A DNA stretch of 64,000 nt from Amycolatopsis tolypomycina (GTDB taxonomy: Bacteria; Actinomycetota; Actinomycetes; Mycobacteriales; Pseudonocardiaceae): NCBI RefSeq assembly GCF_900105945.1, contig NZ_FNSO01000003.1, positions 186,001-250,000 of the forward strand, in the 5' to 3' direction. Below, piece after piece: positions 14,225 to 40,579 of this stretch; within the stretch, counting starts at the first letter, position 1, and the number at the start of each line of letters is the position of its first letter. The position numbers and the translations under genes were made by a program. The notes beneath the pieces are model-generated. The model worked only from the letters and a program-made list of their open reading frames with translations. It searched no databases and was not told where the DNA came from.

Positions 14225-14701
14225 ATGGCTGTCGCGTTCCTGCTTTACGTCTTCGCCGAGATCGCCGCGATCTGGGCGGTGGGCTCGGCCGTGGGTGTGT
14301 TCGGCACGCTGGGCCTCCTCCTGGCGGGAGCGATCCTGGGCTCGTGGCTGGCCCGCCGCGAGGGAGCCAAGGCGATGCGGGCGTTCACGTCAGCGGCCCG
14401 CTCGGGCCGGCCGGCGGAGAAGGAACTGACGGACGGAATGCTGGTCGGGCTCGGCGGTGTGCTGATCCTGGTGCCCGGGTTCGTTTCGGACGTCTTGGGG
14501 TTGCTGTTGATCCTGCCGCCTTCGCGCGCGGTGGCTCGGCGGCTGTGGTTGCGGCGGATGGAGAAGCGGGCGGTGCGGTTCGCCAACCAGCGGCGGGGGC
14601 CGGTGATGGTGGTGGACAGCGAGGTGGTGCCACCGTCGGAGGAGCGCCGGCGCGAAGGAACCCAGCCGACGGTGATCGAGGGACGGGTCATCGAGGGCTG
14701 A
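14225..14701 (+). CDS. fxsA: FxsA family membrane protein
   Basis: 158 residues. Hydrophobic segments at about 3-25 and 27-45 with GTLGLLLAGAILGSWLARREG, then DGMLVGLGGVLILVPGFVSDVLGLLLILPPSR, which is the FxsA signature region, and a cytoplasmic basic C-terminus. In E. coli FxsA is an inner-membrane protein that relieves phage T7 exclusion by the F plasmid; no such role should be assumed here. It marks the left border of the accessory island. Confidence 0.85.
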   Translation: MAVAFLLYVFAEIAAIWAVGSAVGVFGTLGLLLAGAILGSWLARREGAKAMRAFTSAARSGRPAEKELTDGMLVGLGGVLILVPGFVSDVLGLLLILPPSRAVARRLWLRRMEKRAVRFANQRRGPVMVVDSEVVPPSEERRREGTQPTVIEGRVIEG

Positions 14702-14780: not shown

Positions 14781-15239
14781 CTACGAGATCGCGGCCTCGA
14801 CAGCCGAGACGGCATCACGCAGCGGCACGTGTTCCCAGATGCGGACCACTCGCCAGCCCGCTTCCACGAGCGCTTCCGTAACCAGCTGATCACGGCTCAT
14901 GTTGCGCCGGAGCTTCGGCGTCCAGTACCACTCGTTGCTGGTCGGGTGGCGCCCGTGTTCCGGGCAGACGTGCCAGAAGCAACCGTCGACGAAGATCGCG
15001 ACCTTTCGCTTCGTGAAGACGATGTCCGGACGAACACGCACCCCTTCGAGCACTATCGGCAGGTCCTTGCGGTACCGATAACCAAGGCGATGCAGCTCCT
15101 TGCGAAGAGTCACCTCTGGCTTGGTGTCCGTGCGCCTATTGGCTCGCATGTTGCGGGAACGCCCCTCGCTGGCAGCGGCAGGGTAGGGCTTCGGCTTGGC
15201 TTCTTGATCAGTTGGCGGGTGTCTCTCGCGGCGCGCCAT
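14781..15239 (-). CDS. vsr: very short patch repair (Vsr) endonuclease
   Basis: 152 residues. The core reads NRRTDTKPEVTLRKELHRLG, then RPDIVFTKRKVAIFVDGCFWHVCPEHGRHPTSN and YWTPKLRRNMSRD, matching Vsr in order: catalytic Asp in RPDIVF, the VDGCFWHxCPxH zinc/catalytic block with both His, and the NxxRD end. Vsr nicks next to T:G mismatches that arise by deamination of 5-methylcytosine, which fits the divergently encoded cytosine methyltransferase. The start (ATG, 15239) gives an N-terminal tail of about 33 residues; a shorter start at MRANRRTD is possible. Only 53 bp separate the two divergent genes, which must share a promoter region. Confidence 0.88.
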   Translation of the reverse strand: MARRERHPPTDQEAKPKPYPAAASEGRSRNMRANRRTDTKPEVTLRKELHRLGYRYRKDLPIVLEGVRVRPDIVFTKRKVAIFVDGCFWHVCPEHGRHPTSNEWYWTPKLRRNMSRDQLVTEALVEAGWRVVRIWEHVPLRDAVSAVEAAIS

Positions 15240-15292
15240 GCGCCAGATAGTCTCAGGCGCTACCTCGCCACGCCACCCTGGAAAGGAACCCG

Positions 15293-16599
15293 ATGACCGG
15301 CGCACCCGACGACAGCTCCTTCGAGGTCGTTGAACTCTGCGCTGGCGCAGTGGCCAGGCCCTTGGCCTCGAGCGAGCCGGGTTCAAGCACCGGCTTGCCG
15401 TCGAGCTGGACTCCAATGCCTTCGAGACCCTGCGGACCAATATCCCGGGATCAATCGAGATTGACGACGAAAAGCGCGACATCGTCCAGCAGGGCGATGT
15501 CGCCAATCCGGCCATCTTCAACCCCGAAGATCACCGTGAGGTCGCGTTGCTCGCCGGCGGGGTCCCGTGCCCGCCCTTCACGATCGCCGGGAAGCAGCTC
15601 GGCGCAAACGACGAACGTGATCTCTTCGCTTGGGCCGTGGAGCAGGTGGACAAGGTGCGGCCGCGTGCCCTGATGCTGGAGAACGTCCGAGGGCTCAGCC
15701 TGCCTCGGTTCTCGGGTTACCGGCAGTACGTCTTGGACAGGCTTGCCGAGTTCAAGTACGTCGCTGAATGGCGATTGCTCAACGCATGTGACTTCGGAGT
15801 GCCGCAGCTCCGGCCCCGGTTCGTGCTGGTCGCCATGCAGGAGGACGACGCCAAGTACTTCAAGTGGCCCGAACCTGTCGCCGAGCAGCTCACCGTCAGT
15901 GCCGCCATTCACGACCTCATGGGCGCCAACGGCTGGGAGGGGCTCGACCAATGGATCGAGGACGCTGACAAGATCGGGCCCACGATCGTCGGTGGTTCCA
16001 AGAAGCACGGCGGCGCAGACCTGGGGCCGACCAGGGCCAAGCGCGCATGGGCTGAGCTGAGCGTCGATGCGATGGGCGTGGCGGACGCCCCGCCCGCGCG
16101 GGATGCCAAGTTCAAGACCGAGACGAACCAAGCTCCTGGCCCGAAGCTGACCACCGAAATGGTCGCCCGTATCCAAGGCTGGCTCCCTGGATATGAGTGG
16201 ACCTTCACCGGGCGGAAGACGACTCGCTACCGGCAGATTGGCAATGCATTCCCGCCTCCAGTTGCTGAAGCAGTGGGCTCTGCGATCTTAAAGGCACTCA
16301 AGCACGAAGGCGCGGTCGTCTCACGTGAGACCTCGAACCATGACCCCGTTTACAAAGTTCTCCGGGAACTCGGCGGGCTCGTACCCGCCAGTGAGATTCT
16401 GAAACGCGCTGACCTTCGCAACGGGCTCGCCGAGATCGAGGAACGCATCACTCAGCTCGATCGCGACTTCATCATCGAACGCGAGCTCACGTCTGACGGG
16501 AGCCTTGCCTACCGGCTTGGCGAGTTCAAAGCATTCATCGGTCAGGCCAACCACGAACGCCACGAAAAGTTCAGCCAGAACCGGTCCAAGATCAGCTAG
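15293..16599 (+). pseudogene. C5-cytosine DNA methyltransferase, frameshifted in motif I
   Basis: Reading from ATG 15293 (GGAAAGG upstream) gives FEVVELCAGA, the start of SAM-binding motif I, and then leaves frame. Adding one G after 15350 restores GGQALGLERAGFKHRLAVEL and all of the rest: GGVPCPPF (motif IV, catalytic Cys), LMLENVRGL (VI), QLRPRF (VIII), and YRQIGNAFPPPVAEAVG (X). A C-terminal addition of about 90 residues (from SRETSNHD) looks like a winged-helix segment. The full length would be about 435 residues. As it stands the gene cannot make motif I; restart at the TTG/15547 frame would lack SAM binding. Either a true inactivating deletion or a base-call error. It ends overlapping the convergent helicase by 8 bases. 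Confidence 0.85.
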
Positions 16600-18418
16600 A
16601 ACCTGGTTTCCTGACGTGGGCGAGCAGGGCCTTCACGTCCGCGGCGTCCATGCCGGCGATCACGGATGGCTCTTCGAACGGATCGCCTAGCTGCTGAACA
16701 GACGCGTCATCGAGGAGCTTGCCCATGAATTCGAGCTTCTCGTTGAGCCGCATCGCCACGATCTCATCGACCGTGTGACGAGTCGTCAGGACAGTCACCC
16801 GGGTCTCCGTGTCGGGCGCGAGGCCGAGCCGGTGGATCCGATCGAGGCTCTGCAGGAACCGGCCCGCCTGGAAGTCGCGATCGACGTATACCGCGTCATG
16901 GCATACCTGATGCAAACTGATTCCCTCACCCAAGGTAGCCGGGTTGGAGATGAGCACCAAGCAGTCTGGATCACTGCGGAAGAAATCGATCTGCTCTTCG
17001 CGATCCGCGGTCCCTCCGTGCACAACAGCGGGGCGGAAGTCAGCTAGGAGCGTTTCCAGAGTGCTGATACTGCGGACGAAGCTCGCCCACACCAGAGTTT
17101 TCCGCCCCTGCGCAGCGTTGTCCTTCACGATCGCGAGTACCTCTTGGTATTTCGGCGGCATCTCGTATTCCGAGAGTGAACCGAGCAGGCTGTAAAGCGG
17201 ATCGCTAGGCGGAATCTCCAGTGGTGGCACCTGGAGGGACAGGGGCTCATACCTCGTGGCGCCTTGCGCGAGAAGCGCGGGGCTGGTCGCCGCCATGATC
17301 AACCGGAGGACGGTCCTGCCGAGCGAGTCGAAGTCCGACCTGCTTCGCTCGGCACGCTGTGTGTACCGCCCGATAATGGCGTCGTAGATTTCCCGGTGCA
17401 AGGGCGGAAGGTCGACCGTGCGCGTCTTCAGCGAGACTGGCGGCAGGCCGAGCTCCTGCTTGGTAGTCCTCGTGTAAAGAGGCTTGAGGACCCGGCTGGC
17501 ATGGATCAGGTTTCCGCCGTCTATCGCCTCGTTGACCACACGCTTCCCGCGTCCCGGCCAGACGAAGGCGAACAGGCTCTCCAGGTCTTTGGGGCCGTTC
17601 GGAGCAGGAGTCCCGGTCAGGATCATCCTGATGGTGCTCAGTGGTCCGAGAGCCATGCAGGCAGCTCCGTAGACTCCGGCACTCCCGAGCTTCATACGAT
17701 GCGCTTCGTCAAGGATCATCATCGTCGGCGCAGAGCCGACCCATTCGGTTATCACGCCGAGCGATCGATCGAGCCGTTCGTAGTTCACCAGCAATACGTC
17801 TGCCGAGAGCGTGCTCCGGCCATCGAAGACCTGGACATCCAACCCGCCAGCGAAGCACTTTTGGCTCTCTTCCCGCCAGGCTTCATAGGCGGATTTTGGA
17901 CAGACGACCAGCATGCGCGTCACATGGCCGCGCCTGCGCATGATCGAAAATCCCGCAAGAGCCACCCGTGTCTTGCCAGCACCAGGAACCGAGAAGTTCG
18001 CTCCGTGACCGAGCGAGACGAGCTTCGCCACGTCTCGGCGCTGGAACGACGTGAGGTCTCCGGACCACGCTGGTTCCAGAACGTCTGCGAGCTCGCTGTC
18101 GTGGACGACCAGCTCGTCTTCTTCACCAGAGAGGAGCCGCTCGGAGCGTTCGGCGTCTCTGATCATATCCATGGCAAGCGCCTGGAAAGAATCTTCCCAG
18201 ACAACCGAGTCCGGCTCGGGCCATGCGGCCAAGGCTTCAATGTTCCCGAGGAACTCGTCAATGGGAACGGCGGCCGCGAGCCGTTCCGTCATCTGGCCAC
18301 CGGGAAAACCCGCCAGAAGACTAGCGAGGTTTTCCCGGTGCCGGCCTGTCGTCTGCAGCCGCGCCTGAGTCCTTGTCAGGTCGAAGCCGATAACCAGGCT
18401 CGGCCCGTTTCGATCCAC
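16592..18418 (-). CDS. SNF2/DEAH-type helicase
   Basis: 608 residues. After a 120-residue N-terminal part of unknown fold come LTSFQRRDV (Q-motif-like), Walker A VPGAGKTR (144-151), motif Ia VVCPKSAYEAW, Walker B ILDEAH (235-240), motif III LTGTPAPN, and the second RecA domain with ISNPATLGEGISLH (V) and QSLDRIHRLG (VI, arginine fingers in RIHR). This is the SNF2/RapA-like superfamily 2 pattern; such enzymes translocate on duplex DNA. No nuclease domain is visible. The GTG start directly follows the TAA of the ParB-like gene, so the two are one operon. Its location beside a methyltransferase suggests a restriction-type role. Confidence 0.87.
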   Translation of the reverse strand: MDRNGPSLVIGFDLTRTQARLQTTGRHRENLASLLAGFPGGQMTERLAAAVPIDEFLGNIEALAAWPEPDSVVWEDSFQALAMDMIRDAERSERLLSGEEDELVVHDSELADVLEPAWSGDLTSFQRRDVAKLVSLGHGANFSVPGAGKTRVALAGFSIMRRRGHVTRMLVVCPKSAYEAWREESQKCFAGGLDVQVFDGRSTLSADVLLVNYERLDRSLGVITEWVGSAPTMMILDEAHRMKLGSAGVYGAACMALGPLSTIRMILTGTPAPNGPKDLESLFAFVWPGRGKRVVNEAIDGGNLIHASRVLKPLYTRTTKQELGLPPVSLKTRTVDLPPLHREIYDAIIGRYTQRAERSRSDFDSLGRTVLRLIMAATSPALLAQGATRYEPLSLQVPPLEIPPSDPLYSLLGSLSEYEMPPKYQEVLAIVKDNAAQGRKTLVWASFVRSISTLETLLADFRPAVVHGGTADREEQIDFFRSDPDCLVLISNPATLGEGISLHQVCHDAVYVDRDFQAGRFLQSLDRIHRLGLAPDTETRVTVLTTRHTVDEIVAMRLNEKLEFMGKLLDDASVQQLGDPFEEPSVIAGMDAADVKALLAHVRKPGSS

Positions 18419-19828
18419 TTACGTCTCCAGTTCGAGAACTCGACGCAGCCAGTCGACACCTTCGCTCTGCTCTTCAACGGTACGGGCTGCTTCAACAGCC
18501 AAGCTACGCAAGCTACGGCGGAAGCTCAGTACTGAGTCATTGAAGGCCTCTTCGTCTAGCGCGCGAGACGCCCGTGACATGACCAGCTCCGTCACACACT
18601 GATCGATCTCGGCCTTTGCGGTGTTCAGGCGATCCGGGGCCGCCTGCTTCCGCTTCTGGAGCTGCGCCTGACGGCCGGCCAGCCGGATCGCATCGCTCAC
18701 TGCGTTCTTCAGCTCGTTGATCGGTTCGGTCTGCCCGTTTGCCTCCACTCCGACCGAGTTGATCTCCACAGCGCGCGCCTTGAGCACCGTGTTGGTCAGC
18801 TCCTGGGCCTTCGCAACATCGTTCGAAGAACCCTTCACGGAAACACCTAGTCCCGGAATCGTGACCTTCTGCGAAGAGGGCAGCTCCGGCTTGAGCTTGC
18901 CGGGCAAAGTGTCCTTCAGGTAGCGGGACTGGAAGTCTGCCTCGATGAACCTGACATCGGTTTTCGAGAAGCCGAGCATGATCGCAGCCAGCCGCGACTC
19001 CTTGGTCAGCTCGGCACGTTCGCCGCTAGTCGCTCGATCCTTCTGGTAGCGGCGGTGCAGCTCCTTGAGCTTCTCCTGATGATCTTCGAACGCGATCAGC
19101 GGGATGCGGCGGCCGTCCACCTCGCTGCGGTCGATCATCGACTTGATACACGAGAAGACCCACTGATCCTGCTTGCAAGCCGCGACAGTGCTCCGGAAGA
19201 TCGCAGCGATCTTCGCCAACGGCAGTCCCTGGCTCACTAGTTCATCGATCGCCAGCAGGCGGTTGATGTACGAGTAGTCGCGGCGATGTTCCTTTCTGAG
19301 CTGCAGAGACAGCTCGACATCCCGGATGTCGGACCAGTCGCACGAGTCTGGCAGCACCGCGACACGGATCGGCTGCTGCGGACCTCCTAGCTTCAGCAGG
19401 GCAGCCCGCCGGGTGTTGCCGTTCACCAGGATGCCTTCGCGGGTGATCAGGCCCGGCTCGGTCTGCTCATAGTCGGAGAGGCTCTCAAGAAGCTCGGTGA
19501 ACGCCGGGTCGATCCTGCTGGGGTCCGACGGCAGTGCCTGCAGCAGGTAGCCGAGGTACTCCTGGCTCTCGGTGCTCCAGGGGTCATCGTCGATGAGCTG
19601 GTCACGTTGTGGGTCATGACTGCGCTGAGCACGAACCCGATGAGTGGCTGGGTTGTAGTAGAGGTCCCCGACCGGCATCTGGATCACGTCCAGGTGCACC
19701 TGGTTTCCGCGCCATTCGATGCTCTGCGTTTCCCGGGCGCCGCCCCGGGCACTGATCTCCTCGAGGCGGCGCTGGACAACAGCGCGGTTCTCATCGGCCC
19801 GAGGCGGTCGGCCGTAGTCCTTGATCAT
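18419..19828 (-). CDS. ParB/Srx-type nuclease-fold protein
   Basis: 469 residues. The N-terminal half has DVIQMPVGDLYYNPATHRVR and, further on, REGILVNGNTRRAALLKLG: the second is the GNxRRxAL/DGxHR-like box of the ParB/sulfiredoxin N-terminal domain. A helical middle region with a likely HTH (LPLAKIAAIFRSTVAACKQD) follows, then a long C-terminal coiled region rich in Q/K/R (AGRQAQLQKRKQAAPDRLN). ATG at 19828 is behind AGGAGAGCAG. Related ParB-like proteins occur in phage, plasmid and restriction loci where they can bind CTP or cut DNA; which applies here is unknown. Second gene of the operon, abutting the helicase. Confidence 0.75.
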   Translation of the reverse strand: MIKDYGRPPRADENRAVVQRRLEEISARGGARETQSIEWRGNQVHLDVIQMPVGDLYYNPATHRVRAQRSHDPQRDQLIDDDPWSTESQEYLGYLLQALPSDPSRIDPAFTELLESLSDYEQTEPGLITREGILVNGNTRRAALLKLGGPQQPIRVAVLPDSCDWSDIRDVELSLQLRKEHRRDYSYINRLLAIDELVSQGLPLAKIAAIFRSTVAACKQDQWVFSCIKSMIDRSEVDGRRIPLIAFEDHQEKLKELHRRYQKDRATSGERAELTKESRLAAIMLGFSKTDVRFIEADFQSRYLKDTLPGKLKPELPSSQKVTIPGLGVSVKGSSNDVAKAQELTNTVLKARAVEINSVGVEANGQTEPINELKNAVSDAIRLAGRQAQLQKRKQAAPDRLNTAKAEIDQCVTELVMSRASRALDEEAFNDSVLSFRRSLRSLAVEAARTVEEQSEGVDWLRRVLELET

Positions 19829-19890
19829 CTGCTCTCCTGTACCACCAACGCGCCACCGACGAAGAACGATAGCCGGAGCCGGCACACCGC

Positions 19891-20571
19891 TCAGGCCAAG
19901 CCCAGAAACTCACGCAAGGAGGCACGGGCGTCCGCAGGCAGAGCCCGGTATTCGGCCCACACCCGCTCGGCCGCGCTGAACGGCCGCTCGTCCGCGTCCA
20001 CCCAGCCGGCAAGGAGCTCCCGATCGTCCGGGCTCAGTGCGCCGGCTCGATCGATGACAGCGGACAAGTCAGCGGTGAGTTCCTTCGCGCCAACCCGGCA
20101 ACGATTACATTCAGTAACCAGCTGCTTTTCGGTGACGCCGCCGGGGAGCACGACTTCGCGGCGGGCAATATCAAGCTGCGCTCCCTCAAAAGTGCCGGCG
20201 TAGAACTGGCCGGGCGTAATGCCACACGACCGGCACATATTGCTGTCTCCGGAGATCACTTCACGCCGGCGCACCGCACCAATAGCCGGGGCCGACTTCG
20301 ACCTCGAAGGCATTCCCTTCTCCCAGACAGGCTGGCCGCGCGTCACGAAACGCTGCTGCGCCGAGGTGAGCAGCGGATCCTCCCGATTCGTGTCAATGCG
20401 CCAGCCAAAACTCCGGAGGTCTCGCATACGGCGATCGATCTGCGAAACCCCGGGGAACGCGGCGCGCATCTGCTCCTTGGTGAACTCGTTTCCTTCACCA
20501 ACCTCGGCGATGAGCCACAAAGCGACACGCTTCATGGTTCCCAGGTTCGGGTCCTCCCATGACGGCAACAT
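19891..20571 (-). CDS. zinc-finger, HNH-like putative restriction protein
   Basis: 226 residues. N-terminal 80 residues look like a winged-helix (KRVALWLIAEVGEGNEFTKEQM... IDRRMRDLRSFGWRIDTNR), followed by a metal-binding region with CRSCG around 110 and CNRCRVG around 150; CxxC...CxxC spacing with a conserved-looking REV/R-rich part between recalls HNH nucleases, but the HNH catalytic His is not evident. ATG at 20571 follows GAGGTCCAGTAA. First gene of the HNH-like/ParB-like/helicase operon. A homing- or restriction-type specificity factor is a reasonable but unproven guess. Confidence 0.65.
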   Translation of the reverse strand: MLPSWEDPNLGTMKRVALWLIAEVGEGNEFTKEQMRAAFPGVSQIDRRMRDLRSFGWRIDTNREDPLLTSAQQRFVTRGQPVWEKGMPSRSKSAPAIGAVRRREVISGDSNMCRSCGITPGQFYAGTFEGAQLDIARREVVLPGGVTEKQLVTECNRCRVGAKELTADLSAVIDRAGALSPDDRELLAGWVDADERPFSAAERVWAEYRALPADARASLREFLGLA

Positions 20572-20734
20572 TTACTGGACCTCACTTTCAGTGCGCACAC
20601 GATCGCCGGGAGCCTGCTCACCCCCGACGGTGTACACGCAGCGGGACACGGTTAATCCTTTGTAGCACGAGAACAGGCTCATGCCACCCCATCGGTGTTT
20701 ACAGAACAGCACCCCGCGAGACAGCCTGACCACT

Positions 20735-20750
20735 ACTTGCTTTGGCAAGT
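20735..20750. promoter_or_regulatory. inverted-repeat operator upstream of the HNH-like operon
   Basis: ACTTGC-TTTG-GCAAGT, 6-bp perfect arms, in an AT-rich stretch. On the minus strand it lies just after a TTGCTTATGTAAAT promoter-like sequence that could drive the HNH-like operon about 165 bp downstream. Regulator unknown; a C-protein or HTH product of the island is a candidate. Confidence 0.4.
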
Positions 20751-20904
20751 TATTTACATAAGCAAACACAAGCGACCAGTTCTGATGCCACTTGGCGCCT
20801 TTATTAGATTGATTGAAAGCTCAACAAATCATCTGTCCCTTCAGGTGACACGCGCCGCCACCTGCGCATATTCGACTTCTGACTCGACTTCCTGAAGTCC
20901 GCAT

Positions 20905-20938
20905 CTTAATTGTAGATTGTTGACAATCTACAATTAAG
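20905..20938. repeat. 34-bp AT-rich perfect inverted repeat
   Basis: Arms CTTAATTGTAGATTGT and exact complement around a 2-nt centre. Nested inside is ATTGTTGACAAT, resembling GntR/FadR-type operators (TTGTnnACAA), and a TTGACA box. No gene starts within 300 bp on either side, so it may be an orphan operator, a plasmid or integrative-element site, or a control site for the small genes to the right. Confidence 0.7.
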
Positions 20939-21249
20939 CCCACTGATCCGGCAGGACGCCTCGCCGGAGCACCCCTTCGCGCCTCGAAGAGGCAACACGC
21001 CGCGAAGGACTCGAAGGCGCGAAGCGCGGACTCCTGCGGTAGGCTGCCTCAGTCTCAGCCGTTCTAGAAGTTAAGCGCTGACACGAAAGGATCACCCACG
21101 AGGACACGCACCCCTTCCCGTAGGCGGGCGAACACCAGGCGAGCAGAGCACGCTCCTCGCCTCTGTTTAAACGCGCCAGAAACGCGCCAGAAACCCAAAT
21201 CTAGAAATAAGCCACGCTCGATCTATCGCAGAGGAAGAGGTGACGCACG

Positions 21250-21645
21250 ATGAAGGCAAGTCACGTCGGAGAGCGAATCCCTTCGAGTGCAACGGCAGCG
21301 CAGCGCCAATTAGCGAAGACGCTTCTCTCGCTGTGCCGGTGCATGGAAGCACGTACACAGGCGGAGAGGGCTGCGAGGATCTGGATCTCCACGCCAGCCC
21401 TCTCCCTTTACGTCAACGCACACAGGATCCCGTCCATTTCGATCTTGCAGTCGATGCACGCACTGGCAAAGGAAGGAGGACGGGAACGGCTTCCTTGCAC
21501 ATTGAAGGAACTCATCGCGCTGCGCGCGCTCGCCAAGTCAAGTTCGCGCAACGCACGTCTGCGGGGCGAGCAGGTTCACGTCAACCGAGGCCACGCCGCC
21601 GGGAGTAGCGCGGACAGCATGTGCCGCGAGGAGGTGAGCTCGTGA
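21250..21645 (+). CDS. helix-turn-helix protein
   Basis: 131 residues. Residues 25-70 (LLSLCRCMEARTQAERAARIWISTPALSLYVNAHRIPSISILQSMHAL) follow the actinomycete XRE-like pattern in which a helix-turn-helix ends with SxLSxYxxxxRIPS. The C-terminus is Ser/Arg-rich with no domain. ATG behind AGGAAGAGG. Genes of this sort are common in conjugative or integrative elements and next to DUF397-type genes. It overlaps the next small ORF by 4 bases. Function as DNA-binding regulator is inferred. Confidence 0.6.
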   Translation: MKASHVGERIPSSATAAQRQLAKTLLSLCRCMEARTQAERAARIWISTPALSLYVNAHRIPSISILQSMHALAKEGGRERLPCTLKELIALRALAKSSSRNARLRGEQVHVNRGHAAGSSADSMCREEVSS

Positions 21646-21818
21646 CTGTTTTATCCAGGCTGCATCAGATGACGTACAAGAAGGCGATGCAGCGGAAGAC
21701 GGCACCTGCAGGCTGGTATCTGCCGTGGATCTCCTCGGCCTTCCTTCCCTTGCCCTTCGTCCGGTCGGGGACCGGCGCAACGCGATGCGGCAACTCCAGG
21801 TGGACCGGCGCAACGTAA
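21642..21818 (+). CDS. small putative protein, possibly a gene remnant
   Basis: 58 codons from GTG 21642, with AGGAGG immediately upstream and a GTGA overlap with the HTH gene stop. The N-terminal LHQMTYKKAMQRKTAPAGWYLPWISSAFLPLPFVRSG looks like an amphipathic segment plus one hydrophobic stretch. A different frame (21725-21988) continues with charged sequence, so the gene may be broken by a frameshift. Not recognised. Confidence 0.35.
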   Translation: MTVLSRLHQMTYKKAMQRKTAPAGWYLPWISSAFLPLPFVRSGTGATRCGNSRWTGAT

Positions 21819-21999
21819 AAGGCACATTGCCGTCTCCGTCGCCGCGAACTACTCGAAGAAGGCGTGCCGACTTCTCGCCGCAGCCCACCATCGCCACAGG
21901 TGACGCGATCGCGGCTAGAACACTAGGAGTCTCCACGAGAAGTGGCGCACCACTACCTATCTGCACACAGAGGCAACGACAGAGGTAATGGAGGTACTG

Positions 22000-22080
22000 A
22001 TGCGACCAACGGCACGTTCGCTGGGCGCACTCGCCACCGAAGAATTTGGCAGGAGCCTCAGCCTCTGTCACACAAAGTAA
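22000..22080 (+). CDS. candidate 26-residue peptide
   Basis: ATG at 22000 preceded by GGAGGTACTG, an almost ideal ribosome site; an in-frame ATG at 21988 is also usable. The product ends SLSLCHTK. Between two other tiny ORFs on the same strand. No family known; real translation is uncertain. Confidence 0.25.
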   Translation: MRPTARSLGALATEEFGRSLSLCHTK

Positions 22081-22089
22081 CCGCGTTCG

Positions 22090-22137
22090 GTGACCATACG
22101 GTGACCCCACACACATAGTGACCCGACACATAGTGAC
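22090..22137. repeat. iterated GTGAC motif, iteron-like
   Basis: Four GTGAC motifs at 22090, 22101, 22118 and 22133. The first pair belongs to a direct repeat GGTGACC-ATAC-GGTGACC, the second to a 12-bp direct repeat ACACATAGTGAC (22111-22122 and 22126-22137). They end 10 bases before the next small ORF, so they could be a repressor array or a replication/transfer iteron. Confidence 0.5.
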
Positions 22138-22146
22138 GAGGTGAGC

Positions 22147-22299
22147 ATGCGCAAAGCCAGGCGAGCTGGTTCTCATCGTGCTAGTTCGCGGAAGCTGTCC
22201 CCCCGGGACGCACTCAGGGAAAGCCAGCCGGTATGCCGGCCAGCAGTCACCGGCAGGCCTTCCCCTTCCAGAAACCCCTCCACCTGCGGAAACAAGTAA
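22147..22299 (+). CDS. small basic protein, uncharacterised
   Basis: 50 residues from ATG 22147 with GAGGTG upstream. Very basic N-terminus (MRKARRAGSHRASSRK), two cysteines, many Ser/Pro; no predicted fold. Lies directly behind the GTGAC repeats and 9 bp before a second small ORF with its own AAGGAG site. Not recognised; could be spurious. Confidence 0.35.
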   Translation: MRKARRAGSHRASSRKLSPRDALRESQPVCRPAVTGRPSPSRNPSTCGNK

Positions 22300-22308
22300 G
22301 GAGTCCTG

Positions 22309-22509
22309 TTGGCTAAGTCTACGGGGCGAGAGCGGAGCCTGCGTCTCCATGCGGCGAGCTTCACGCGTTCTGGTAAGCGGACACGCCTCACCGGAACAGT
22401 GCCCCAGGAGCAGAGCTGGCCGAAGACCCTCCTGCGCGGCGCCCTCTTCGGACTGGGGAAGGTCGCGGTCGAACGGTTGATCGAGGTACTGACGTCCCTC
22501 GGGAGCTGA
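22309..22509 (+). CDS. small basic protein, uncharacterised
   Basis: 66 residues from a TTG start behind TAAGGAGTCC, the ribosome site overlapping the stop of the preceding small ORF. Basic first 40 residues, then a possibly amphipathic or membrane-peripheral helix (LLRGALFGLGKVAVERLIEVLTSLG). Followed by a strong hairpin. The coupling, ribosome site and terminator argue for a real two-gene unit. Confidence 0.4.
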   Translation: MAKSTGRERSLRLHAASFTRSGKRTRLTGTVPQEQSWPKTLLRGALFGLGKVAVERLIEVLTSLGS

Positions 22510-22513
22510 CCAG

Positions 22514-22557
22514 GGACAGGTAGGGGTTTGCGGCAGCCAGCAAACCCCTACCTGTCC
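22514..22557. terminator. bidirectional terminator hairpin
   Basis: Perfect 18-bp stem beginning GGACAGGTAGGGG with an 8-nt loop, between the small ORF stop (22509) and the convergent SCP2 gene stop (22548-22550, inside the right arm). Marks the right end of the accessory island. Confidence 0.7.
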
Positions 22558-38690: not shown

Positions 38691-39977
38691 TCAAACGGCG
38701 GCAGCGAGCACCACGATGCCGACCAGCTGCAGATCGAGCCCGCGGAACAGCTGGCGGGTGAGGTTGGCGGGCATCGGGCCCATCGGGGTGTCGACGAACC
38801 CGGGATTCGCGTAGTCAACGGCGGTCCGGGTGACCGTGCGCAGGATCGACAGGACCGACAGCGGCACGGCGAGCCAGGCCGTCGCGGCGAACGACGTCCC
38901 ACCCGCGAGGGTGACCGCCACGAGCACTGTCCACCAAAGCAGACCCACGCCGCCGAGCACCAGGCCGTGGGCCAGCACCAGTTCGCGGTCCGTCGAGCCC
39001 AGCCACCGGCGCCGCCCCGGGTTGCGCCAGAGCTCGCCGAGGCCGCCGCCGAACGGCAGCAGCGCCACGTACCCGCCGACGCCGATCAGGACCGCGCCCG
39101 GCACCGTCGGCACCGCGATGTGCGCGACGACGACCGCGAGGCCGACCAGCAGCGCCGCGCCCGCGTACCGCACCCGGCCGAGCGTGCCCGCCCAGGCCAG
39201 CCGCAACGACGTCGGGCGGCGCAGCGAAAGCCCGCCGGTGGGCGCGGACGGCGGCAGCAGCATCATCGGGTCGAGGAAGGTGACGGCGACCGAGCGCAGC
39301 ACCCGGCCGTCCCACCCGGCGAGCAGCGCCGCCCGGCCCGCCCGCGACACCGGCTCGCCGCCGAAGGCCAGCGGCAGCGCCGCCACCAGTACCCCGGCCG
39401 CGACGAGCTGGACGGTCGCCGGGCCGAGGCCGAGCGCCGCGATGCCCAGGCCGACGACCGCGAGCACCAGCGGGCCGAGCGCGTCGAGGCGTACCGACAT
39501 CCGCCGCGCCGTCGCGAAGGCCGCCACCCCGGTCGCGGCGACCACCGCGACCGCCGCCCGCCACTGCTCCAGCCCGGCGCCGCCGACGGCGAGCAGCAAC
39601 GCGGCCAGGTAGCCCGTCACCGCGACCACGCCGGTCCACGCGCCGAGCAGCCGCAGCGTGACGACCCGGCCGCGGTCCACCGGGGCGAAGTCGAGCCAGG
39701 TCAGCTCGGCCGGTTCGACCCACGCGAAGCCCCGCCGGAGCAGGCCGCGCCAGCCCACCGCGCAGCAGAGCGTCAGCAGCCCGAGCACGGCCGGGAAGTC
39801 CACAATGGACGAGCCGTAGAGCGCGGGCCGCCAGCCGTCGACGTGGAAGAACGCGGTGAACAGGAACCCGAAGCCGAACAGGAAGACGAAGGTGGCGGTG
39901 TCGCCGCTGAAGATCCCGCCGAACCGCTTGCGCCCGGGGATCCGCATCCGCCGCGGGGTCGGCGTCACCACAGTCAC
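38691..39977 (-). CDS. ABC transporter permease
   Basis: About 428 residues, roughly 12 hydrophobic segments, no soluble domain. Gly/Ala/Val-rich helices with arginine-rich loops (TARRMSVRLD; GRVRYAGAALLVGLAVVVAH) are like large actinomycete ABC-2-type permeases. GTG at 39977 overlaps the ATPase stop by 4 bases (GTGA). Partner of the ATPase just upstream. Confidence 0.75.
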   Translation of the reverse strand: MTVVTPTPRRMRIPGRKRFGGIFSGDTATFVFLFGFGFLFTAFFHVDGWRPALYGSSIVDFPAVLGLLTLCCAVGWRGLLRRGFAWVEPAELTWLDFAPVDRGRVVTLRLLGAWTGVVAVTGYLAALLLAVGGAGLEQWRAAVAVVAATGVAAFATARRMSVRLDALGPLVLAVVGLGIAALGLGPATVQLVAAGVLVAALPLAFGGEPVSRAGRAALLAGWDGRVLRSVAVTFLDPMMLLPPSAPTGGLSLRRPTSLRLAWAGTLGRVRYAGAALLVGLAVVVAHIAVPTVPGAVLIGVGGYVALLPFGGGLGELWRNPGRRRWLGSTDRELVLAHGLVLGGVGLLWWTVLVAVTLAGGTSFAATAWLAVPLSVLSILRTVTRTAVDYANPGFVDTPMGPMPANLTRQLFRGLDLQLVGIVVLAAAV

Positions 39978-40579
39978 CACAGCTCGAGCACGCTGTCCGC
40001 GGCTTCGAGCAGCGGCGGGTGGTGGGTGGCCACCACGACCGCCGCGCCGGCCGCCGTCGACCGGGCGATCACCTCGACCAGCCACTCCTTGCCCGCGGTG
40101 TCCAGCGCGCGTTCCGGCTCGTCGAGCAGGAGCACCCGGTGCGGCCGCGCGGTGACGCCGAGCAGGAGCAGGCGACGGCGCTGGCCCGCGGAGAAGTGGC
40201 CGGACGTCACCCGCATGCGTTCGCCGAGGCCCGCGTCCCGCAGCAGCTCCTCGTGGTTGCCGAGGTCGGCGCCGAACGAGCCGGACAGCAGCTCGAGGTG
40301 CTGCAGCGGCGTGAGCTCGGCGAAGAAGTCGGAGTCGTCGAACAGCACCGACACCTTGCGGCGGAACTCGACGTCCCGCTCGTCCGGCACCTTGCCGTCG
40401 ATCAGCACGCGGCCGCGCTGCGGCTTCTGCATGCCGTAGAAGCAGCGCATCAGTGTCGACTTGCCGACCCCGTTGGGCCCGACGATCGCCGCGCACTCGC
40501 CGGGGTCGACGGAGAAGTCCAGGTCGTCGAACAGCCACAGCTCGCCGGCCCGGACGCCGAGCGCCTTCGCGTCGATCAT
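39974..40579 (-). CDS. ABC transporter ATP-binding protein
   Basis: 201 residues. Walker A GPNGVGKST, signature FSAGQRRRL (variant of LSGGQ), Walker B RVLLLDEPERALD, H-loop THHPPLLE. Slightly short with a Ser-Ala in the signature, but all nucleotide contacts are there. ATG overlaps the stop of the LLM oxidoreductase gene by 4 bases, so it belongs to one transcript with it and the permease. Confidence 0.87.
   Translation of the reverse strand: MIDAKALGVRAGELWLFDDLDFSVDPGECAAIVGPNGVGKSTLMRCFYGMQKPQRGRVLIDGKVPDERDVEFRRKVSVLFDDSDFFAELTPLQHLELLSGSFGADLGNHEELLRDAGLGERMRVTSGHFSAGQRRRLLLLGVTARPHRVLLLDEPERALDTAGKEWLVEVIARSTAAGAAVVVATHHPPLLEAADSVLELW

Follow-up and report, generated by a model that had tools for sequence, protein, structure and literature searches.

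The restriction endonuclease NaeI cuts GCCGGC. The unrelated enzyme NgoMIV cuts the same sequence (PMC4081073). The type II restriction-modification (R-M) systems of these enzymes serve here as a reference for a locus from Amycolatopsis tolypomycina. The locus lies in a stretch of 64,000 nucleotides (contig NZ_FNSO01000003.1, positions 186,001 to 250,000), referred to as the window. It codes for a Vsr mismatch endonuclease, a C5 cytosine methyltransferase, and a set of three genes (the triad): an HNH-like protein (HNHL1), a ParB-like protein and an SNF2-family helicase/translocase. As in the NaeI and NgoMIV systems, a C5 methyltransferase and Vsr stand alongside, and the NaeI-like and NgoMIV-like nucleases linked to the triad in related loci are true relatives of these two enzymes. 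NaeI systems, however, occur without the triad, whereas here the triad is constant and the nuclease is optional. We give about an even chance to the reading that this is an accessory R-M-type island, in which the triad is a portable restriction module driven by nucleoside triphosphate (NTP), with a cutter that varies between relatives.

Several other described systems share part of this gene set. In the MORC/paraMORC R-M operons (group 2), an SWI2/SNF2 ATPase, an HNH or EcoRII-like nuclease, a cytosine methylase and Vsr occur together (Iyer et al. 2008, PMC2292703). The window also combines an SNF2 ATPase, a C5 methylase and Vsr. Its core, however, is devoid of a GHKL/MORC protein: no GHKL family was found among the 10 window proteins scanned, and a GHKL gene is near the triad in 12 of the 80 related loci described below. 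The word ParB is absent from that paper. Another set of R-M operons (PMC3710099) associates an SNF2 helicase with a DUF3883 nuclease domain, but as an SNF2–DUF3883 fusion in operons that also hold a HEPN/AAA+ protein, whereas here the two are encoded separately and preceded by a ParB-like gene. In GmrSD type IV restriction, ParB-fold GmrS and HNH domains cooperate (PMC12839542 and PMC5512222). GmrSD is, however, modification-dependent and consists of one or two proteins, while the system described here has separate genes, an SNF2 protein, a methyltransferase, and an HNH-like domain without its histidine. Finally, structure comparison reveals the same fold in ParB-CTPase fold proteins outside chromosome segregation. 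PMC12704722 describes fusions of such proteins (e.g., to HNH and methyltransferase domains) and does not contain the word SNF2.

Druantia type II and DISARM are also among the close systems. The window methyltransferase matches the PADLOC model for DruM (positions 73-424 of 424, E 1.4e-164), but a general type II methyltransferase model fits nearly as well (E 5.1e-151). DruE, DruF and DruG are not among the PADLOC matches of the five genes and the adjacent helix-turn-helix (HTH) gene (best 25 of 55 matches for the methyltransferase, best 25 of 31 for SNF2). The SNF2 protein shows remote similarity to DrmD (PADLOC E 4.3e-13) and DrmA (E 2.9e-5) of DISARM, and the methyltransferase resembles DrmMII (E 3.4e-21). 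Against the curated DrmD model, SNF2 reaches 43 bits (cut-off 610), and neither DrmB/DUF1998 nor DrmC/PLD is among the matches listed for the locus proteins. DISARM, Druantia, Zorya and Dpd were rejected, because SNF2 is far below the cut-offs of those curated models that exist and because the partner proteins are missing. A preliminary description of the locus had set it apart from DISARM and had found no system to name it after. Both statements are supported; no exact match to a described system was found, PADLOC and curated models included. In the literature searched, outside of which are most subscription papers and bioRxiv, ParB, SNF2, C5 methyltransferase and Vsr are not described as one system.

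The gene set is highly conserved. A profile of the ParB-like protein was compared to a collection with one genome per species, where 200 pattern matches yielded 179 relatives, and the best 80 were examined. These are the nearer relatives, all of them actinobacterial, and a locus is taken as the triad with up to ~9 kb on each side. HNHL1, ParB and SNF2 are contiguous, on the same strand and in the same order in 80 of 80 loci, and the methyltransferase and Vsr are present in 73. Three of the seven loci without the latter are cut by contig ends (L037, L056, L072). For L007, L013 and L039, methyltransferase and Vsr are found with NaeI elsewhere in the genome, and for L018 in another triad locus that its genome has. 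Six such genomes have ~1 to 4 C5 methyltransferases each in whole-genome searches, so that the presence of one in 73 of 80 loci is not attributable to chance. In 56 loci an HTH gene lies upstream, and 14 have an HTH gene of a second family. Methyltransferase distances co-vary weakly with those of HNHL (partial r 0.23), SNF2 (0.10) and ParB (0.09) over 64 loci, each value being corrected for the other two. All five genes of the preliminary description are present and form the conserved neighbourhood that it had proposed to check. A phage search gave no match, and viral contigs gave 5 pattern matches and 0 relatives.

The nucleases next to the triad are exchangeable. Their families were assigned by sequence clustering, with one member per cluster checked with Pfam; NgoMIV was sought with one query. 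NaeI is encoded in 37 of the 80 loci and a NOV_C/DUF3883 protein, directly after the SNF2 gene, in 19, including two loci that have both. NgoMIV is found in three (L056, L060 and L075, the latter also having NaeI), and at least one of the three families in 56. For the 43 loci without nearby NaeI (42 genomes), the enzyme is encoded elsewhere in 5 genomes. The NaeI-like protein matches PF09126 (E 2.8e-124, one member scanned), and the L029 copy matches PDB 1ev7 (E 7.9e-91). The NgoMIV-like protein from L139 matches PDB 1fiu (E 2.5e-40). Strict motif patterns are incomplete (23 and 13 of 39 for NaeI, 19 and 18 of 19 for NOV_C). When the ParB tree is labelled by NaeI, NOV_C, minimal or no methyltransferase, at least 15 changes are required (least possible 3, shuffled mean 39.3); in this labelling, loci with both nucleases count as NOV_C, and NgoMIV is not separated (L060 counts as minimal, L056 as no methyltransferase). 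The well-supported branches alone force 9 changes for NaeI, 4 for NOV_C and 5 for minimal loci.

In the window itself, tblastn revealed no NaeI or NOV_C gene (the only matches are one inside the SNF2 gene, from an open reading frame overlapping a helicase, and one at E 0.004), and its genome has no NgoMIV. Of the two hallmarks of a type II R-M system, a cognate restriction endonuclease was not recognised in or beside the locus. The DNA methyltransferase is represented by a PF00145 match, with a frame that is broken in the window copy and intact in three relatives (L132, L133, L134).

The presumed recognition core of the methyltransferases, located between motifs VIII and IX, hardly varies. One pattern for this core, which tolerates two or three letters at seven positions, fits 82 of 82 copies of the loci, whether NaeI, NOV_C, NgoMIV or none is nearby. 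The same core is found in the window copy and in 8 further copies, 5 of which are from NaeI or Vsr loci without a nearby triad. Because two unrelated enzymes of one specificity occur beside one methyltransferase core, GCCGGC is the likely methylated target. The number of GCCGGC sites in the window (148, with 168 expected) carries little weight either way. The earlier suggestion, made from the sequence, that the locus is R-M-like and that 5-methylcytosine is its likely self-mark is supported. No characterised enzyme is named among the best 120 methyltransferase homologues listed. The whole-genome match for the window copy is at G000:C3:201352-202290 (G000 is the 10.36 Mb genome of the window, C3 the contig with the locus). 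The homologues of this genome are Amycolatopsis-like, the nearest named one being AMES_9090 of A. mediterranei S699 (95%).

Vsr passes the TIGR00632 cut-off (156.2 bits, cut-off 97.85). Its identity had been correctly proposed before, but with a start at 15521 that makes the protein too long; it starts at ~15239. Strict Vsr motif patterns are incomplete (15, 31 and 72 of 73 copies). That Vsr serves as the restriction nuclease is a weak idea, since NaeI systems are also accompanied by Vsr.

The ParB-like protein and HNHL1 have no significant family match in library scans. By structure modelling, the N-terminal domain of the ParB-like protein is of the ParB/KorB/Noc type, with partition, nucleoid-occlusion and repressor proteins (ParB, Noc, KorB) as best structural matches. 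An NPxTHR motif is found in 80 of 80 homologues, while stricter patterns are incomplete (GNxRR-type 44/80, ELxLQLR-type 75/80). Pfam scans of 30 relatives gave only weak matches (CdvA coiled coil in 7, best E 5e-4; RepB in 1, E 0.0035), and a PDB sequence search with the profile gave unrelated helical proteins (best E 0.0023). The most likely start of the ParB-like gene is the ATG at 19828, since in a 95%-identical relative a stop codon immediately precedes that ATG. The SNF2 homologues all have a Walker A motif (80/80); DEAH-type (72/80) and LTGTP (63/80) patterns are incomplete.

HNHL1 is modelled as a winged helix followed by an HNH-like domain. Where related proteins have the catalytic His, each of the 81 HNHL1 copies adjacent to ParB, from the 80 loci and the window, carries an Arg at the aligned position, while the His is retained in 8 of 10 copies of the related HNHL2 type from the 80 loci. 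Judged by this alignment, HNHL1 is an HNH endonuclease relative that has lost its catalytic histidine, which speaks against the proposal that the HNH-like protein is the effector. A PDB search with the HNHL profile gave a best E of 0.41, and Foldseek nothing at E 0.001. In eight loci (L020, L022, L027, L030, L031, L035, L036, L048), HNHL2 is encoded beside the triad between two methyltransferase genes, with the histidine intact in 7 (L020 is the exception). This is perhaps a separate HNH-type R-M system.

Within the genus, the island is patchily inherited and accessory. The ParB-like gene is found in 9 of 80 genomes of the genus, and in 3 of 396 sampled genomes of the phylum, its own included, while the flanking FxsA gene is present in 80 of 80 genomes of the genus. 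The site between FxsA and SCP2-like genes was compared in stretches of 16 genomes, 14 from this genus. It holds the triad with methyltransferase and Vsr in G000, G035, G047 and G068, and the same set plus NaeI in G069, while G048 has NaeI, methyltransferase and Vsr there but no triad. G071 has Vsr only, and none of the sought genes were found in G063 and G036. In G057 and G058, Vsr adjoins FxsA, and the stretch did not reveal the other flank. In G030, G059, G060 and G070, the triad is located elsewhere. NaeI above the curated cut-off is encoded in 6 of the 9 triad genomes (5 strongly) and in 8 of the 71 other genomes of the genus (7 strongly). In G035 and G047, the triad occurs in a genome with neither NaeI nor NgoMIV, and G060 has NgoMIV. 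Three other Vsr genes, 41-45% identical to that of the window, adjoin the same FxsA gene (L143 7356-8264, L144 4567-5478, L145 4990-6302); apparently, this is a hotspot for islands linked to Vsr.

The ParB–SNF2 pair extends beyond the actinobacterial loci. Plasmid searches revealed it on a Streptomyces albidoflavus plasmid, where NOV_C accompanies it and the stretch matches neither HNHL nor the methyltransferase. Azospirillum, Rhizobium, Kozakia and Mesorhizobium plasmids also carry it. The order in these four alphaproteobacterial plasmids is a first gene of ~280 to 320 codons, ParB, SNF2 and DUF3883/NOV_C (4/4), with an insertion sequence between the pair and DUF3883 in Mesorhizobium. Three of the four stretches include an annotated C5 methyltransferase; that of Kozakia does not. 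The SNF2 protein from the Rhizobium plasmid is 39% identical to that of the window over 529 aligned positions, and cross-phylum comparison of ParB profiles gave a probability of 99.7 over 392 columns. Profile comparison shows no relationship of the first gene to HNHL1 (probability 0.2), and Pfam gave no match for it, but a PADLOC model of a type II endonuclease fits the single copy that was scanned (E 2.8e-19). Since the window methyltransferase matched none from these plasmids at E 1e-3, the target there probably differs, the first gene changing with it. An unannotated stretch from Paracoccus also shows ParB and SNF2 similarity.

The pair is also found on Lactobacillaceae plasmids, next to R-M genes that are either type II-like or type III. 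In Lactiplantibacillus plantarum E2, ParB and SNF2 (28% identical to the window protein, E 6e-50) are followed by a MutH/Sau3AI-like endonuclease, with a C5 methyltransferase and Vsr around them. The endonuclease matches the Sau3AI model below its cut-off over the second half of the protein (E 1.1e-56). On plasmids of Lacticaseibacillus paracasei and Limosilactobacillus reuteri, a methyltransferase gene and a restriction gene of type III (mod and res) directly precede the genes for a ParB-like protein of 430 residues and SNF2 (L174 157-8297, L175 1-7455). The 430-residue proteins are 92% identical to each other and 31% to ParB from L. plantarum E2. The preliminary description did not cover this cross-phylum pair, nor the interchangeable nucleases, the divergent HTH gene and the methyltransferase frameshift.

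ParB and SNF2 stay constant while reader, nuclease and methyltransferase change, from which we infer a portable NTP-driven restriction engine. Gene content, conservation, nuclease exchange, predicted folds and the loss of the HNH histidine are observed, and the following scheme is proposed from them. The methyltransferase would mark host DNA, most likely at GCCGGC, and Vsr would repair T:G mismatches arising from 5-methylcytosine. HNHL1 may read unmodified target sites, at which the ParB-like protein could be loaded as an NTP-dependent clamp or spreading factor. SNF2 would translocate on DNA, and the complex would pass DNA, possibly that of phages, to a nuclease whose family varies among relatives (NOV_C, NaeI, NgoMIV). 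In the minimal version, the cutter might be the ParB-like protein itself or a host nuclease. As a tentative generalisation, somewhat more apt to be wrong than right, ParB–SNF2 would be a general plug-in restriction engine (NTP-gated clamp plus duplex translocase) that has been recruited by R-M systems (NaeI, NgoMIV, NOV_C, Sau3AI-like, type III) in at least three phyla. Target recognition would be provided by the first gene, a dead HNH endonuclease here and a type II endonuclease relative in alphaproteobacteria.

Several observations weigh against the portable restriction module. Nineteen loci with all five genes carry no NaeI, NOV_C or NgoMIV. Their genomes, many of them draft assemblies, have no NaeI or NgoMIV, other nuclease families not having been sought genome-wide. 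This minimal form without a recognised cutter is the weakest point of the engine concept. NaeI without the triad and the triad without NaeI both occur, so that neither needs the other. The frameshift in the window methyltransferase also counts against an active module, which should not tolerate this loss unless it is a sequencing error, as it may be, or unless another enzyme protects. The latter could be the methyltransferase of a second R-M system located ~500 kb away (C3:707320-711070; L085 7320-11070), which would then protect the chromosome if that of the window is truly dead. The second system codes for HNHL2, NaeI, an intact methyltransferase with the same recognition core, and Vsr. It has no ParB or SNF2 nearby, the genome holding one ParB-like gene of this family.

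The 19 loci can be read differently, with the ParB-like protein as the nuclease effector (non-specific, NTP-coupled nicking), so that the triad is complete with HNHL1 as reader, SNF2 as motor and ParB as cutter. Nuclease activity is reported for GmrS, Osa and Bce_0392, all of the ParB fold (PMC5512222). We nevertheless consider this reading unlikely, given that structure comparison places the ParB-like protein closest to proteins of partition, nucleoid occlusion and repression, and that a dedicated nuclease family is present in 56 of 80 loci and DUF3883 on all four alphaproteobacterial plasmids. We have similar doubts about a triad that does not restrict at all, but silences, remodels or regulates around methylated sites or aids the methyltransferase, the nucleases being a separate type II system that shares the mark. 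G048, with NaeI, methyltransferase and Vsr but no triad at the same site, would fit, as would the many genomes with the triad and no NaeI and the same methyltransferase core next to either. NOV_C directly after SNF2 in 19 actinobacterial loci, DUF3883 after the pair in alphaproteobacteria (once behind the insertion sequence), and the pair following type III mod and res genes speak, however, against it. That the window system is a decaying remnant, as its broken methyltransferase frame (intact in three relatives), missing linked nuclease (no NaeI or NOV_C in the window, no NgoMIV in the genome) and shortened HTH gene might indicate, is quite improbable, because the frames of HNHL1, ParB and SNF2 are intact, three relatives (G035, G047, G068) have this gene set too, their methyltransferase being unbroken and their triad proteins 75-95% identical, and the frameshift may be a sequencing error.

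The genes of the island are listed in Table 1. The GC (guanine plus cytosine) content is 62.0% in 14781-22540, compared to 70.0% in the left and 70.5% in the right flank. The window HTH gene resembles triad-adjacent HTH genes of relatives (tblastn, best E 6.4e-9) and is, for this reason, counted as part of the locus; its frame ends earlier than that of L132. Between the HTH and SCP2 genes (~22300-22508), there is a short open frame that is conserved with L132. Outside the island, window positions 39001-40000 have a GC content of 0.770 and an extreme AT skew (0.470).

Table 1. Genes of the island and its boundaries (positions in the window).
Feature	Position	Strand	Assignment
FxsA gene	14225-14701		left boundary of the island
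Vsr mismatch endonuclease, 152 aa	14781..15239	-	TIGR00632 E 3.8e-46; PDB 1cw0 E 7.6e-13
C5 cytosine methyltransferase	15293..16599	+	PF00145 E 1.2e-43 on open part; frame broken near 15350, then open to end
SNF2-family helicase/translocase, 608 aa	16592..18418	-	PF00176 E 5.8e-17; PF00271 E 5.4e-6
ParB-like protein, 469 aa	18419..19828	-	predicted ParB/KorB/Noc-type fold, HTH region, helical C-terminus
HNHL1, 226 aa	19891..20571	-	predicted winged helix and degenerate HNH-like zinc domain; probable target reader
HTH protein, divergent from triad	21250..21645	+	HTH_3 E 9.2e-4 (below Pfam cut-off); probable regulator
SCP2-like genes	from 22548		right boundary of the island

If the portable restriction module is real, a partition-type clamp has been drafted into restriction, and R-M systems could act beyond their recognition site. 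The general engine would then play the part in restriction that MORC- or MutS-type clamps have elsewhere. At one chromosomal site, relatives have the triad, NaeI, both or neither, so that nature itself provides a clean comparison. Such a module would also provide a role for methyltransferase–Vsr pairs without an obvious nuclease, and it might help to explain why some actinomycetes are poorly transformable with DNA that does not carry their methylation.

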